Positions 16,996 through 42,271 of a DNA stretch of 64,000 nucleotides are shown here, piece by piece. The notes beneath the pieces were generated by a model, which ran no database searches, was not told the DNA's origin, and saw nothing but the letters and a program-made list of their open reading frames with translations. The position numbers and the translations under genes were made by a program. Position 1 is the first letter of the stretch; each line of letters starts with the position of its first letter. The stretch comes from Fimbriimonadales bacterium (GTDB lineage: Bacteria > Armatimonadota > Fimbriimonadia > Fimbriimonadales > GBS-DC): contig AP024673.1 in NCBI GenBank assembly GCA_025998675.1, positions 2,302,562-2,366,561 of the forward strand, given 5' to 3'.

Positions 16996-17571
16996 TTACT
17001 TCTTGCGGCGGCGCAGCCCCAGCAGGCTGATCAGCCCAGTGCCCATCGCAATCAGGCTGCCCGGCTCCGGCGCGATGATTTTGCCCGACTCACCTGATGG
17101 GAGACCCTGAATATGCACCATCGCGCTGTTGTCCAGCCCCGCGAAGTCGGTGGTGGAGACGCCGAACAACTGGAAGGTGGAGGTTCCGCCAGGAAGCAGG
17201 CGCGATGCAGGGGGCGAACCTTTGAACCGCACCTGAGCGTTGAAGCCCAAACCCGCATCGGTGTAGCTGCCTAACGAGATTAACTGCACATACGGGTCGC
17301 CTGTGAAGTCAGACCCTGTCGGAGTCGTGTTGAAGAGCAGGTTCAGTTCACGGATGAACTGTCCCGCAGTGTTCGTCGGGCTGTTGGTCAGACTAATCTG
17401 CACGCCTCCCACGATGTCGCTGATGGTCATCGTCGCCCATGGCGCGGGACCAACGGGCGTGCCCCCAGTGTAAACCGTGTTGAAGTTAAACACGATAGAC
17501 GCTGAAGCCTGTGCAAGAGCGACTATACTTACGACACTCATCACGAACCAGCGATTTACGATGTTTCTCAT
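16996..17571 (-). CDS. PEP-CTERM exported protein, paralogue A
   Basis: 191 aa. An N-terminal signal peptide (MRNIVNRWFVMSVVSIVALA, cleavage near ASA) and a C-terminal sorting signal are visible: APEPGSLIA, a hydrophobic stretch GTGLISLLGL, and the basic end RRRKK. PEP-CTERM proteins are cut and anchored or released by an exosortase; none is in the window. The central 135 residues are a beta-rich domain of unknown function. It is about 75% identical by eye to the protein at 21345-21923, which lies in the opposite direction with the same downstream hairpin. Confidence 0.85.
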   Translation of the reverse strand: MRNIVNRWFVMSVVSIVALAQASASIVFNFNTVYTGGTPVGPAPWATMTISDIVGGVQISLTNSPTNTAGQFIRELNLLFNTTPTGSDFTGDPYVQLISLGSYTDAGLGFNAQVRFKGSPPASRLLPGGTSTFQLFGVSTTDFAGLDNSAMVHIQGLPSGESGKIIAPEPGSLIAMGTGLISLLGLRRRKK

Positions 17572-19348: not shown

Positions 19349-20350
19349 ATGAAGCTGCGATTCGTTGCTGGGAACGAAGAAAGTGCTGTATCAAAGCAAA
19401 GCAGCGATTTAGAGGCGATGCTGCAAATAGCGCCGCAGGTCTTCTTTCACACACCTGTGACCGCGCGCACGCAATATCTCCACGCGCTCCGGGGGGTGCT
19501 GGCGGCTGGGAAGGCGCTGGCGGTCATTGTGGAAGACGACGCCGCTCAACCGCTCGCCTTCGGGATGAGCTGTTTCCTCTCCGATGAGGCGCGTCAGACC
19601 ATCCTGCGAGGAACCCATCACATCGGCTACCACCTGCTCAGGGGGCAGACGCGCGGAATCCTCTCGCCAAAAGATATCACAGGCGCTCATAAAGGCGGCG
19701 GGCTGAATCTGCTGGGCTTTTATGGCTGGAGTAACCATCTCGATGCGGCGCAGCTGCAAGCAGTGCGAGAACTTTTGCTGAAAAGCTTCCGCCATCTGCA
19801 CTGGGGCTATCACCTCAAGTCGTTCCTCAAGGAGGTTTACGGCGAAGAGGAAGCCGAGCTTTACAGGCGGATGGGCTGTGAGATTTATCGGCGTCCCGAG
19901 GACTACCAGCACCAGAGCTACCGCAAGCTGCGTCCCTTCCTGGTGGGGATTACGCGCAAGCAGGTGTGCTTTCCTGACAGGATAGCCGACCTGTTCACGG
20001 TGGGGCGCCCCAGCTTTATCCTGCCGAGAAGCCTGCGCCAGGTGGCTCAATTTCATTTTGTTATGGGGCTTAGCGCGCGCCATGCGGCTCAGTGTTGCGG
20101 CGTCGAGCCAGCGACCATCCATGTGAGCTGGAACCGAATCTACAACTGTGTGCGCACTCGTGTGAGTGATACTCTGGAGCCTGAAGCGGTGCTGCGCTAC
20201 CTGCATGAGAATCCTGCGGCGCTTTACCCGCTGGAGATTCCGCGCTTTTTTTACAGGCGCCCCGACCGTGCGCGCGCGTATCCAATTCTTGTGCGGCGGC
20301 CATCAGTTGCCCCGCCAGCGTCAGCAGACGAAATCCCGCGTCCCTCTTGA
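19349..20350 (+). CDS. Unknown protein with LuxR-like C-terminal HTH
   Basis: 333 aa, no signal peptide or membrane segment. I do not recognise residues 1-220; they begin MKLRFVAGNEESAVSK and include a mixed alpha/beta region (GKALAVIVEDDAAQPLAFGM, LGFYGWSNHLDAAQLQAVRE). Residues about 225-275 (LRQVAQFHFVMGLSARHAAQ, then CGVEPATIHVSWNRIY) follow the spacing of a LuxR/GerE helix-turn-helix, where a helix ending in GLS is followed by a recognition helix and an IY.K-type end. A DNA-binding role is plausible but weak, because the usual LTxRExEVL start is absent. The next feature is the tRNA-Asn promoter. Confidence 0.6.
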   Translation: MKLRFVAGNEESAVSKQSSDLEAMLQIAPQVFFHTPVTARTQYLHALRGVLAAGKALAVIVEDDAAQPLAFGMSCFLSDEARQTILRGTHHIGYHLLRGQTRGILSPKDITGAHKGGGLNLLGFYGWSNHLDAAQLQAVRELLLKSFRHLHWGYHLKSFLKEVYGEEEAELYRRMGCEIYRRPEDYQHQSYRKLRPFLVGITRKQVCFPDRIADLFTVGRPSFILPRSLRQVAQFHFVMGLSARHAAQCCGVEPATIHVSWNRIYNCVRTRVSDTLEPEAVLRYLHENPAALYPLEIPRFFYRRPDRARAYPILVRRPSVAPPASADEIPRPS

Positions 20351-20376
20351 CAATCGGGCGTGCGATATGGTAAAAT
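20347..20376 (+). promoter_or_regulatory. Canonical promoter of tRNA-Asn
   Basis: TTGACA (20347-20352), 18 nt spacer, TAAAAT (20371-20376); the tRNA begins 15 nt later. This is the best match to a housekeeping -35/-10 promoter in the window and contrasts with the -35-less GGTATAAT boxes at many protein genes. Confidence 0.85.
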
Positions 20377-20390
20377 ACCTACACCGACGC

Positions 20391-20466
20391 TCCTGGGTAG
20401 CTCAACTGGCAGAGCGGGTGGCTGTTAACCACCAGGTTGCAGGTTCGAGCCCTGCCCCAGGAGCCA
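20391..20466 (+). tRNA. tRNA-Asn (anticodon GTT), CCA encoded
   Basis: Full cloverleaf: acceptor TCCTGGG / CCCAGGA, discriminator G, encoded CCA (20464-20466), D-arm with GCTCAACTGGCAGAGC, anticodon arm GGTGGCTGTTAACCACC with GTT, and T-arm GCAGGTTCGAGCCCTGC. It is 73 nt plus CCA. The RluB-type gene begins 11 nt after the CCA, so both are likely on one transcript. Confidence 0.97.
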
Positions 20467-20477
20467 TTTGCGTTTCT

Positions 20478-21206
20478 ATGGAACCCCTGCGCGTGCAGAA
20501 GTGGCTGGCGCACTGTGGCTACGGCTCGCGACGCGCCTGCGAGCGGCTTATCCTGCAGGGGCGCGTGGCGGTGAACGGAGCGCCTGCCGCACTCGGCGCG
20601 AAAGTGGACCCCGCGCGCGATACGATTACTGTCGACGGCAAGCCCGTGTCGCCGCCCCAGCACGCGCCCGTGTACCTCATGCTCCACAAGCCGCGCGGCT
20701 ACATCACCACCTGCAAAGACCCCCACGCGCCCCGCACGGTGATGGAACTGCTCAGGGATGCGCCCGCGCCTGTGTTCCCCGTCGGCAGGCTGGACGCCGA
20801 TTCGGAGGGGTTGCTGCTGTTTACCAACGACGGCGCGTTCGCGAACCGCCTGATGCACCCGCGCTACAAGCTGCCCAAAACCTATCGCGTGTGGGTGGCG
20901 GGTACGCCGTCCGCGCGCGCCCTGCAACGCCTGCGGGAAGGCGTGCCGCTGGAAGATGGCATGACCGCACCCGCGCAGGTGAAACGCCTCCGCACCGAGA
21001 ACGGGCAGACCCTGCTCGAGGTGGCGCTGTACGAGGGACGCAAGCGCCAGATTCGACGCATGTGCCAGGCGGTGGGACATCCCGTGAAGCGGTTGGTGCG
21101 CATCGCCATCGGCGACCTGCGCCTGCCACGCGATCTCAAGCCCGGACAGTGGCGCGCCCTCACCCCTGCAGAACTGAAGCTGCTGACCCCTCAGCAACAG
21201 CCCTGA
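20478..21206 (+). CDS. rluB: Pseudouridine synthase, RluB/RsuA family
   Basis: 242 aa from ATG 20478; longer frames would read through the tRNA. An N-terminal S4 RNA-binding domain (RVQKWLAHCGYGSRRACERL ... GRVAVNG) precedes the catalytic domain with GRLDADSEGLLLFTNDG, whose aspartate is the catalytic residue, and the C-terminal EGRKRQIRRMCQAVGHPVKR. Members modify uridines in 23S (RluB, RluE/F) or 16S rRNA (RsuA). The length and S4 domain favour RluB. There is no Shine-Dalgarno between the tRNA and the ATG. tRNA 3' processing would leave a message with only about 11 nt ahead of the start codon. Confidence 0.9.
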   Translation: MEPLRVQKWLAHCGYGSRRACERLILQGRVAVNGAPAALGAKVDPARDTITVDGKPVSPPQHAPVYLMLHKPRGYITTCKDPHAPRTVMELLRDAPAPVFPVGRLDADSEGLLLFTNDGAFANRLMHPRYKLPKTYRVWVAGTPSARALQRLREGVPLEDGMTAPAQVKRLRTENGQTLLEVALYEGRKRQIRRMCQAVGHPVKRLVRIAIGDLRLPRDLKPGQWRALTPAELKLLTPQQQP

Positions 21207-21344
21207 ACGCACACGGAGTCCCTGCGTGCACTCCTGAAACAGGGGCGTTCCGCCAGATTCCGAGCCAATTGCCGCCGCCGTGCGCGACATGCTGTCCGCT
21301 TTCAGTAATTTTTCGAGTCTATATAGGGTGGAGGTGCAACAAGC

Positions 21345-21923
21345 ATGAAAAACTTACTGAAACGATGGATCGTGATGGGCGTACTGGGTCTTGCCGCGCT
21401 GTCGCAGGCGTCTGCCACGTCTATCCTGTTTGTCTTCAACACGGTGCACTCGGGCGATACGCCGGGTGGTCCCGCACCATGGGTGACGATGACCATCACC
21501 GACATTTCAGGCGGTGTTCAGGTGAGCCTGACCAACAACGCGACGAACACTGCGGGGCAGTTCATCAGCGAACTGAATCTGCTTTTCGACATGCTCCCGA
21601 CAGGGTCCAACTTCAGCGGTGATCCTTATGTGCAATCCATTTCGCTGGGCAGCTACACAGACGCGAGTTTGAGCTTCAATGTGGAGGTGCGGTTCAAAAA
21701 TGCACCACCCACAGCACGACTGCTTCCTGGTGATACATCCACCTTTAAGCTATTCGGCGTCTCCACTTCTGACTTCGCAGGGCTGAACGACAGCGCGATG
21801 GTGCATATTCAGGGGCTTCCCTTGGGCGAGTCCGGCAAAATCATCGCGCCGGAGCCGGGCAGCCTGATTGCTATCGGCACGGGGCTGATCAGCCTGCTGG
21901 GGCTGCGCCGCCGCAAGAAGTAA
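21345..21923 (+). CDS. PEP-CTERM exported protein, paralogue B
   Basis: 192 aa with signal peptide (MKNLLKRWIVMGVLGLAALS, cleavage near ASA) and the same C-terminal tag as paralogue A: APEPGSLIA, hydrophobic GTGLISLLGL, RRRKK. The shared core includes NTAGQFI.ELNLLF, GDPYVQ and MVHIQGLP.GESGK. GGAGG lies upstream of the ATG. Together with 16996-17571 it forms a head-out inverted duplication with a shared downstream hairpin. Surface or matrix location is expected if an exosortase exists elsewhere. Confidence 0.85.
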   Translation: MKNLLKRWIVMGVLGLAALSQASATSILFVFNTVHSGDTPGGPAPWVTMTITDISGGVQVSLTNNATNTAGQFISELNLLFDMLPTGSNFSGDPYVQSISLGSYTDASLSFNVEVRFKNAPPTARLLPGDTSTFKLFGVSTSDFAGLNDSAMVHIQGLPLGESGKIIAPEPGSLIAIGTGLISLLGLRRRKK

Positions 21924-40101: not shown

Positions 40102-41384
40102 GCGCTTAGCAGGCGAATGACCTGCACCGTCGCGTCGGGCTGCTCGCGCAGGCGGGCGATTTGCGTCTGGAACGCGCCCTCGTTCACGGGCGGGGTCAGC
40201 GCGACCTGCTCGACGCCCTGTTCCAGCGCCTCGGCGGGGTGAAACTCCGCGCCCAGCAGGTGCAGCGGCTCGCGCAGCGTGCGCAGGGCGTCCTCATCAG
40301 GGGCGACCAGCCGCACAAAGTAGCGCATACTCAGCGATTCAATCGGCGCGGTCTCCCCGGGGCGCAGCGACGGGTCTTCATAGCGCGGGGGCTTGGGGGA
40401 GCGCGCCACGGCAATCAGGTCGCCCAGCACCGCGCTGGCAGTCGCCCGTGCGCCCGCGCCGAAGCCGTGAAACGACATCTCCTGAAAGCCGTTGCCCTGC
40501 AGCCACACGCCGCTGAACGCGCCGCGCACCACATACAGCGGACACTCGCGCGGAATCAGCGTCGGATGCACCCGCGCGCACAGTCTGCCGTCGGGCAGCC
40601 GCTCGGAGATGCTCAGCAGTTTCAGCCCCATGTTCAGCCGTCGCGCCCACAGCAAATCGCGCCCGCTCAGGTGGGTAATCCCCTCGCGGTAGACGCTCTC
40701 CAGCGGCACATACTGCAGGAACGCCAGCCGCGCCAGAATCGCCGTTTTGTATTGCGCGTCGTAGCCCTCCACATCGCTGGTCGGGTCGGCTTCGGCGTAG
40801 CCGTTCTGCTGGGCTTTCTGCAGGGCGTTTGTATAGGCGGTCTCGGCGGGTTCGCCTGCGTCGAGGGCGCGCTCCATCTCGCGCAGGATGAAGTTCGTCG
40901 TGCTGTTCACGATGCCCACGGCGCGCTGGATACGGTTGCCCGCCAGTGCGCCCTGCAGCGCGTCCAGAATCGGCAGGCTGCCCGCGACGCTCGCCTCGTA
41001 CAGTAGCCGCACCCCGCGCTGGCGCGCCAGCCGCAGCAGTTCATCGCCCGACACTGCCATCACCAGCTTATTCGCGGTAATCACATGCTTGCCCGCCTGC
41101 AGCGCGTCGCGGATGAGCGTGCGTGCGGGTTCCAGCCCGCCCATCAGCTCCAGCACCACATGCACCTTCGGGTCGCAGAGGGCGCGCTGGGGGTCGGTCG
41201 TCAACAGTTTGGGCGGCACGGCGACGGCGCGGGGCTTGTCGGGATTGCGCACCAGCACATGGCGCACTTCGAACCGTTTGCCTGTCTGCGCCTCCAGCAG
41301 GTCGGCGTTCTCGCGCAGCAAGGTCAGCACGCCCCCGCCGACCGTGCCCGCGCCCAGAATCGACAGTCGCAGAATCTTACTCAT
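40095..41384 (-). CDS. hom: Homoserine dehydrogenase
   Basis: 429 aa. N-terminal NAD(P) fold with LSILGAGTVGGGVLTLL; catalytic domain with KHVITANKLVMA, YEASVAGSLPILDALQ, GIVNSTTNFILREME and the conserved ADPTSDVEGYDAQYK. The C-terminal 85 residues (SMRYFVRLVAPDEDALRTLR) form an ACT domain for threonine feedback. It reduces aspartate semialdehyde to homoserine for threonine and methionine. ATG 41384 overlaps the accB stop (ATGA). Aspartokinase is not in the window. Confidence 0.95.
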   Translation of the reverse strand: MSKILRLSILGAGTVGGGVLTLLRENADLLEAQTGKRFEVRHVLVRNPDKPRAVAVPPKLLTTDPQRALCDPKVHVVLELMGGLEPARTLIRDALQAGKHVITANKLVMAVSGDELLRLARQRGVRLLYEASVAGSLPILDALQGALAGNRIQRAVGIVNSTTNFILREMERALDAGEPAETAYTNALQKAQQNGYAEADPTSDVEGYDAQYKTAILARLAFLQYVPLESVYREGITHLSGRDLLWARRLNMGLKLLSISERLPDGRLCARVHPTLIPRECPLYVVRGAFSGVWLQGNGFQEMSFHGFGAGARATASAVLGDLIAVARSPKPPRYEDPSLRPGETAPIESLSMRYFVRLVAPDEDALRTLREPLHLLGAEFHPAEALEQGVEQVALTPPVNEGAFQTQIARLREQPDATVQVIRLLSAV

Positions 41385-41806
41385 TCAGGCGGCTCCAGCA
41401 GCATCAGCACCTCACCCTGTTGCACCAGGGTGGCGTTCTGCGCCACGATGCGCCGCACGATGCCAGTGATGGGTGAAGGCACTTCGTTGAACACCTTCAT
41501 CGCTTCGATCAGTCCGATTGTCTGCCCCTCGTACACGAGGTCGCCCTCTTCCACATAGGGCGGCTCGCTCGGCGAGGGACCGCGGTAGAACATGCCGGTC
41601 ATGGGCGATTCGATGGGCGTCCAGCCAGGCGTTTCCGCGGGGCGAGGCGGCTGGGATGGCTGCACGACAGCAACGGCAGGCGCGCTGGTCGGCTCGGCGC
41701 GTTCGATATGAATGCGCGTCTCGCCTACTGCAACCTCCAGCGCCTGCAATTGGTACCGTTCCATCAGCTGCAGGCAGCGCTTCACCGTCTCAATCGGCAC
41801 AGGCAC
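41381..41806 (-). CDS. accB: Biotin carboxyl carrier protein of acetyl-CoA carboxylase
   Basis: 141 aa from a GTG at 41806 (VPVPIETVKRCLQLMERYQL). The N-terminal helix pair and the Ala/Pro-rich linker (SAPAVAVVQPSQPPRPAETP) are followed by the biotinyl domain with ESPMTGMFYRGPSPSEPPYV and the biotin-attachment Lys in LIEAMKVFNEV. AccB carries carboxyl-biotin between carboxylase and transferase in fatty acid synthesis. AccC usually follows accB; here hom does. GGTATAAT lies 6 nt before the GTG. The frame is open further upstream, to 42316, but that overlaps the divergent gene. Confidence 0.92.
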   Translation of the reverse strand: MPVPIETVKRCLQLMERYQLQALEVAVGETRIHIERAEPTSAPAVAVVQPSQPPRPAETPGWTPIESPMTGMFYRGPSPSEPPYVEEGDLVYEGQTIGLIEAMKVFNEVPSPITGIVRRIVAQNATLVQQGEVLMLLEPPE

Positions 41807-41854
41807 ATCGGGATTATACCTGACGGGTGGGGACTGCCGATAATTGGGGGTATG
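41804..41854. promoter_or_regulatory. Back-to-back leaderless promoters of accB and a membrane-protein gene
   Basis: Minus: GGTATAAT at 41820-41813, 6 nt, then GTG 41806 (accB). Plus: GATAAT at 41839-41844, 7 nt, then ATG 41852. The two start codons are only 45 bp apart and neither gene has a Shine-Dalgarno. Confidence 0.55.
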
Positions 41855-42271
41855 GCACTGCCAGCGCCCGACCGTGAGTCGCGTGAGAAGCCGCCGCTGT
41901 GGATTATTCAGGAGGCGTTCGAGGGCGACGAGCCTGCCGAGCAGCCGCAGGATGTGTATATTCTGCACCTGTGGCGTGCGCTGCCGCCCGATTTGCTCGA
42001 ATCGCTCACGCCCGACCAGCGCCAGCGGCTCAAGCAGTCGCTGCACACCTATCACCGCCGTCATCTGCTCGATGTGCGCGGGGTCATCCCGTTCCTGTGG
42101 ACGCGCTACTACTTTGTGTTTTTGTTCGGCAGGGACACGCGCGCGGCGGCGCGTTCGGTCGAGTTCGAGCGGCGCGCAAGCGTGCGCTGGGCGGGCTGGC
42201 TGGTGATGGCGGCGATCATCGGGTTGCTGCTGATTGGCTTTCTGGGCGCGGCGCGCCTGTGGCGGGGGTAG
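41852..42271 (+). CDS. Hypothetical protein with one C-terminal membrane segment
   Basis: 139 aa. The start MALPAPDRESREKPPLWIIQ is chosen because GATAAT ends 7 nt upstream and earlier codons overlap accB. A soluble N-terminal part with a helical LTPDQRQRLKQSLHTYHRRH is followed by a basic/aromatic strip (RYYFVFLFGRDTRAAARSVE) and a membrane helix (VRWAGWLVMAAIIGLLLIGF) near the end, so it is tail-anchored. I do not recognise it. It stands alone between accB and the amidase gene; 42272-42383 shows nothing more. Confidence 0.65.
   Translation: MALPAPDRESREKPPLWIIQEAFEGDEPAEQPQDVYILHLWRALPPDLLESLTPDQRQRLKQSLHTYHRRHLLDVRGVIPFLWTRYYFVFLFGRDTRAAARSVEFERRASVRWAGWLVMAAIIGLLLIGFLGAARLWRG

Follow-up and report, generated by a model that had tools for sequence, protein, structure and literature searches.

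The window analysed here is a stretch of 64,000 nt and forms part of the single-contig genome (2.99 Mb) of a Fimbriimonadales bacterium. It carries a tRNA-Asn gene that is followed closely by rluB, a gene for an rRNA pseudouridine synthase (Table 1). The nearest named relatives of the rluB product are Armatimonadetes/Fimbriimonadales MAGs, and the group presumably inhabits hot springs. From the whole genome 48 tRNAs were collected, 45 of which encode CCA according to ARAGORN, and tRNA-Asn is present among these 48 as a single copy. Directly 5' of the tRNA-Asn promoter lies an ORF of 333 aa (19349-20350) for which neither Pfam nor NCBIfam gives a match at E 0.001. The region is flanked by a pair of closely similar secreted proteins of about 191 aa, encoded on opposite strands (16996-17571, minus; 21345-21923, plus). 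We take these to be of the PEP-CTERM type, judging by their C-terminal motif.

Table 1. Features of the tRNA-Asn-rluB junction and of the related tatD locus
Feature	Position	Strand	Basis and remarks
Sigma-70-type promoter of tRNA-Asn	20347-20376	+	Consensus scan; TTGACA 20347-20352, 18 nt, TAAAAT 20371-20376, TG before the -10 box
tRNA-Asn (anticodon GTT/GUU), CCA encoded	20391-20466	+	ARAGORN; Rfam RF00005, 66 bits
AGGAG, SD-like, 3' strand of the acceptor stem	20459-20463	+	Base-paired within the folded tRNA; distance to the ATG 14 nt
T-rich spacer, 11 nt, TTTGCGTTTCT	20467-20477	+	Putative cleavage tract; would be the entire leader of a processed mRNA
RluB/RsuA-family rRNA pseudouridine synthase, 242 aa, ATG 20478	20478-21206	+	S4 and PseudoU_synth_2 domains
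tRNA-Arg, tRNA-Arg, tRNA-Ser(CGA), tatD, one direction	L039:2018-3053 (G000:C1 about 41017-42052)		

A consensus scan of positions 20200-21400 returned a single promoter-like site, the one in front of tRNA-Asn. It matches the consensus at 11 of 12 positions, and 0.2 such sites are expected in the scanned segment. Transcription would start near 20383. An earlier note on this DNA had described a gap of 11 nt between the CCA and the rluB ATG, with neither a ribosome-binding site nor a second promoter. The gap was confirmed. The scan gave no second promoter-like site in 20380-20478, and a search for Shine-Dalgarno (SD) 4-mers found none inside the spacer. A terminator between the two genes, which the note had named as evidence against its proposal, was likewise not found, the scan having returned no terminator-like site in 20200-21400. 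The arrangement is that of a tRNA-mRNA operon, with the tRNA and the coding sequence on one strand, a promoter 5' of the tRNA and neither promoter nor terminator detected in between.

The product of the ORF at 20478-21206 scored 177.8 bits against TIGR00093 (cut-off 109.3) and matched PF01479 and PF00849, and thus has the S4-containing architecture of the RsuA/RluB type. Its best solved relative is RluB 4lab. The equivalog PRK10700 (RluB) was not passed, with 153.3 of 290 bits, yet it was the best-scoring equivalog. Therefore, we use the label RluB/RsuA family, with 23S rRNA pseudouridine 2605 as a putative target base. As the S4 domain starts no further in than residue 5, the ATG at 20478 is the natural start. 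A longer protein read through the tRNA, formally an ORF of 346 aa from a GTG at 20166, was rejected for the same reason and because the spacers in relatives measure 7, 9, 10, 11, 12 and 13 nt. These varying lengths break the frame and exclude a conserved reading frame across the tRNA.

We then compared the junction across related genomes. rluB was present in 60 of the 61 genomes searched, and 30 loci were fetched and scanned for tRNAs. Eleven of these carry tRNA-Asn directly upstream, 7-13 nt from the ATG, and 18 have no tRNA-Asn upstream. In the one further case, G017, the distance is 51 nt. There, the tRNA-Asn is followed by a hairpin and a T run, and the rluB ATG lies a few nucleotides past the T run, an attenuator-like variant (L162). 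Within the genus, 10 of the 12 genomes with rluB have tRNA-Asn at 7-13 nt, and among the other genera of the family one of five genomes is linked (G014, 11 nt). Seen from the tRNA, a full-length tRNA-Asn match exists in 12 of 13 genus genomes, with rluB next to it in 10 of the 12. In G001, nine T follow the tRNA-Asn and rluB is found elsewhere, behind another ORF. G005 (65% complete) has rluB behind an ORF similar to that of G001 and lacks a full tRNA-Asn. In G012, the tRNA-Asn has no rluB behind it, and rluB was not found in that genome. The link is therefore dispensable, as two of 12 genus genomes with rluB carry it elsewhere and two of 12 tRNA-Asn genes lack it downstream. On the rluB tree the label 'linked' needs three changes, with many branches being weak. 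Among GTDB genomes, a tRNA within 200 nt upstream was seen in five of 80 rluB loci (the best 80 of 362 confirmed), and we judge all five to be genus genomes that had already been counted. Retention in 10 of 12 genomes confirms that the adjacency in the genus exceeds chance.

Both a TTGACA and a GGTAnnnT element are found 5' of tRNA-Asn in all 11 linked genomes. Pairwise identity across the genus is 98% for the tRNA and 84% for the first 90 coding nucleotides (G003 excluded from the coding figure). The spacer in between has diverged, with a column identity of 0.25-0.80. Its composition is biased, since T makes up 62 of the 103 bases over the ten genus rluB spacers. Nine of these ten spacers show five or more T among the ten bases that precede the ATG. 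Among other ORFs such a T content was seen in one of 69 from genus relatives and in seven of 157 from this genome. Because of the kinship of the genomes these counts are not independent. The control set consisted of ORFs with 120 aa or more, taken at their first ATG and excluding tRNA-linked ones. In two rluB spacers shorter than ten bases, the CCA end was counted into the T tally. What is conserved is thus spacer length and T-richness rather than any motif.

No usable SD is present in the 11 linked spacers, as would be expected of a leaderless or short-leader mRNA. None of them has an SD 4-mer at 3-13 nt, and two carry AAGG abutting the ATG. The 16S tail with CCTCCTTT is intact. The AGGAG in the acceptor stem was rejected as a working SD, being paired in the tRNA and separated from the ATG by 10-16 nt across the genus. 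Moreover, the tRNA-Asn genes of G001 and G012, which have no rluB behind them, carry it unchanged.

Translation signals in the genome were surveyed in the window and 26 further stretches. ORFs and starts were taken mechanically, and one of 149 ORFs was dropped for want of upstream sequence. Among 148 first starts, 50 have an SD of 4 nt or longer in front of them, compared with 31 of 148 internal start-like codons; for an SD of 5 nt or longer the numbers are 28 and eight (n = 148 each). The earlier note had referred to a leaderless habit elsewhere in the window. Of 164 ORFs, 11 do have GGTAnnnT 3-9 nt upstream of a possible start. The following 7-nt bins hold 9, 12, 6, 6 and 6 cases, and a control word gives 0, 0, 2, 2, 2 and 4 from the 3-9 nt bin onwards. 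The distance bins therefore indicate that promoters very near to starts exist, and they have no clear leaderless peak. The short distance has no clear advantage over greater distances, and the counts hint at a leaderless habit of modest extent.

Two further tRNAs of the genus have a protein gene at a similarly close distance. In this genome, tatD (PF01026) starts 10 nt behind tRNA-Ser(CGA), and all 10 genus loci, our own included, keep precisely this spacing. Three genus genomes gave no match in this survey, and two of 30 loci were without a readable motif. In three other genera, tatD lies 8, 11 and 9 nt behind tRNA-Ser(CGA), and in a fourth genus (G013) a tRNA 3' end that ARAGORN did not call is visible 14 nt before the tatD ATG. 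No tRNA was found upstream of tatD in G015 or in 13 readable order-level loci. The second case is tRNA-Ser(GCT), which is followed at 15 nt by an ORF of 455 aa for a CAAX-protease-like membrane protein (PF02517; L062:1576-3054). Here, all 10 genus loci keep a distance of 9-19 nt. Nine were called by ARAGORN and the tenth (L212) was read by eye since its contig ends within the tRNA; three genus genomes were without a match. Spacers at this junction are mostly T-rich in the genus, with no T at all in this genome. The tatD spacers are purine-rich, not T-rich, and three of 13 carry an SD-like 4-mer at 5-6 nt, so that a U-rich cut would not be common to all three junctions. Four further tRNAs have an ORF start 19-23 nt behind them, some with an SD. 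One of these ORFs is PIG-L-like (PF02585), and the remaining ones are presumably tal-, tig- and accD-like, judging by their proteins. Three apparent junctions were not counted after inspection by eye. The EF-G-like gene at -1 nt from tRNA-Val seems to have its natural start about 125 nt downstream, the ORF with a GTG at 0 nt from tRNA-Pro looks spurious, and the ORF with a GTG 2 nt behind tRNA-Thr seems to start further downstream.

That tRNA-Asn and rluB share a transcript, as the earlier note had proposed, is well supported by these sequence comparisons. Adjacency and tRNA promoter are conserved, no terminator or second promoter was found, and tRNA-Asn was found as a single gene. As the only tRNA-Asn found, it must be matured, and a read-through transcript must therefore be cut at or just behind the CCA. 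It follows from such an obligatory cut that the rluB mRNA would begin about 0-11 nt from the ATG (about 0-13 nt across the relatives). We infer the cut behind the CCA, the enzyme and the translation route of the cut product as follows. The promoter of tRNA-Asn would drive a single transcript of both genes. The tRNA would fold in the nascent RNA, and RNase P would generate its 5' end. An endonuclease, most likely of the RNase E/G type, would cut the U-rich single-stranded tract right behind the CCA, and an exonuclease would subsequently trim the tRNA 3' end. The downstream product would be an rluB mRNA with a 5'-monophosphate and a leader of about 0-11 nt without an SD, translated by a leaderless or short-leader route. 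The tRNA would thus form the 5' boundary of the rluB message.

The genome encodes RNase E/G (G000:C1:2891518-2892765; 507.9 bits, above the cut-off) and RNase J. No RNase Z above the model cut-off was found in the whole genome, the best hit reaching 40.3 bits over positions 7-71. According to the available parts of the sources, Escherichia coli RNase E matures tRNAs by cutting adjacent single-stranded segments (PMC3985628), and in Propionibacterium acnes cuts have been mapped a few nucleotides downstream of CCA-encoding tRNAs (PMC3848588). By analogy, an RNase E/G-type cut in the T-rich tract is plausible. In the predicted precursor fold the acceptor stem is intact and the first bases behind the CCA are single-stranded. 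Against the model, the predicted fold of the processed RNA places the start codon within a short hairpin, partly in its loop and partly in an arm, and RNase J could degrade an rluB mRNA with a 5'-monophosphate. The modest extent of the leaderless habit also counts against it. A special structure of the start region was rejected, since the precursor and processed folds are no more stable than shuffled sequences (z -0.52 and 0.39). The earlier proposal that processing yields a leaderless rluB mRNA would follow if read-through occurs, and it fits the T-rich spacers and the presence of RNase E/G; with 11 nt, however, compared with a limit of about 10 nt for such mRNAs, the predicted leader only borders on leaderless. 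The complete series of shared transcript, cut behind the CCA and translation of a short-leader rluB mRNA is, in our estimation, moderately probable.

Three other explanations were weighed against it. Ribosomes may load on the uncut co-transcript, with the U-rich tract behind the tRNA acting as a site for ribosomal protein S1 or as a standby site. Maturation would then play no part in rluB expression or even destroy it. The T-rich spacers, the single-stranded bases after the CCA in the precursor fold and the moderate SD use of the genome would all suit such loading. We nevertheless regard it as unlikely, because the tRNA needs maturing and its precursor should be short-lived, and because 7-13 nt behind a folded tRNA would leave little room for the 30S subunit upstream of the ATG. 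The main role of the T tract could also be that of a weak terminator or attenuator, with rluB expressed from rare read-through and leader length being a by-product. Such a role is suggested by the nine T behind the rluB-less tRNA-Asn of G001, by the hairpin and T run before rluB in G017 and by nine T that follow one tRNA-Met of this genome. At the junction itself, however, discriminator and CCA lie between the acceptor stem and the T tract, an interruption that a normal terminator does not have. The scan detects no terminator here, and several linked genomes have short or interrupted T runs, which makes this explanation improbable.

Even less probable is a start site of rluB's own, inside the tRNA gene or from another promoter, with the adjacency reflecting inertia of gene order. 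The segment 20380-20478 has no promoter-like site, the spacing stays at 7-13 nt despite the diverged spacer sequence, and the same close junction recurs at two other tRNAs across the genus. A promoter could still hide within the conserved tRNA, and G001, G005 and other genera, in which the link is lost, indicate that rluB can be expressed otherwise.

Beyond the preferred reading for rluB, in which a cut behind the CCA sets the mRNA 5' end, the genus might use tRNA excision regularly for this purpose. At least three genes (rluB, tatD and the CAAX-protease-like gene) lie 7-19 nt behind tRNAs; in each case a short-leader cut product would be translated and output tied to tRNA maturation. This extension is a tentative one, and we lean slightly towards doubting it.

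The proposed scheme has parallels in known systems. In animal mitochondria, tRNA punctuation, that is tRNA excision, defines mRNA 5' ends. The likeness is that a leaderless or nearly leaderless mRNA would begin where a tRNA has been excised. The present case differs in concerning a bacterial chromosome, in leaving 7-13 nt, in an encoded CCA and in having one gene per tRNA rather than a genome-wide arrangement, with processing predicted here from sequence. The thrU-tyrU-glyT-thrT-tufB operon of E. coli is a known tRNA-mRNA operon and likewise has tRNA and protein genes on one strand behind a tRNA promoter. Our genome contains a tRNA-Tyr-tRNA-Thr-tuf arrangement, in which 42 nt separate the tRNA from the start of a gene that we take to be tuf from its protein and that is preceded by an SD (GAGGAG) of its own. 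In contrast, the rluB leader would measure 11 nt and lacks an SD.

In the archaeon Thermococcus kodakarensis, a tRNA-Lys lies within the 159-nt 5' UTR of TK0306, a DEAD-box helicase gene (PMC4247193). There, too, a co-transcribed tRNA serves as leader to an RNA-related gene; about half of that UTR is non-tRNA, however, and the available part of the paper describes no processed leaderless product (PMC4247193). The leaderless mRNAs of actinobacteria (PMC3848588, PMC4633059, PMC4681348) share the short or absent leader and the missing SD. According to the accessible portions of these papers their 5' ends are start sites, and PMC4633059 argues that transcription rather than processing gives rise to them, whereas processing is proposed here. 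Our literature search, which covered mainly papers outside subscription journals, found no bacterial leaderless mRNA made by tRNA processing. Each component has been described separately, namely bacterial operons of tRNA and protein genes, leaderless mRNAs and tRNA punctuation in mitochondria; their combination in a bacterium would be new.

If the model holds, a bacterium would make translatable leaderless or nearly leaderless messages by tRNA excision, following the mitochondrial scheme from a bacterial chromosome. Output of rluB would then follow tRNA output, as the earlier note had suggested, and an rRNA-modifying enzyme would be coupled to tRNA supply without any regulator. The junction would also provide a natural test of whether short-leader mRNAs with a 5'-monophosphate are translated.
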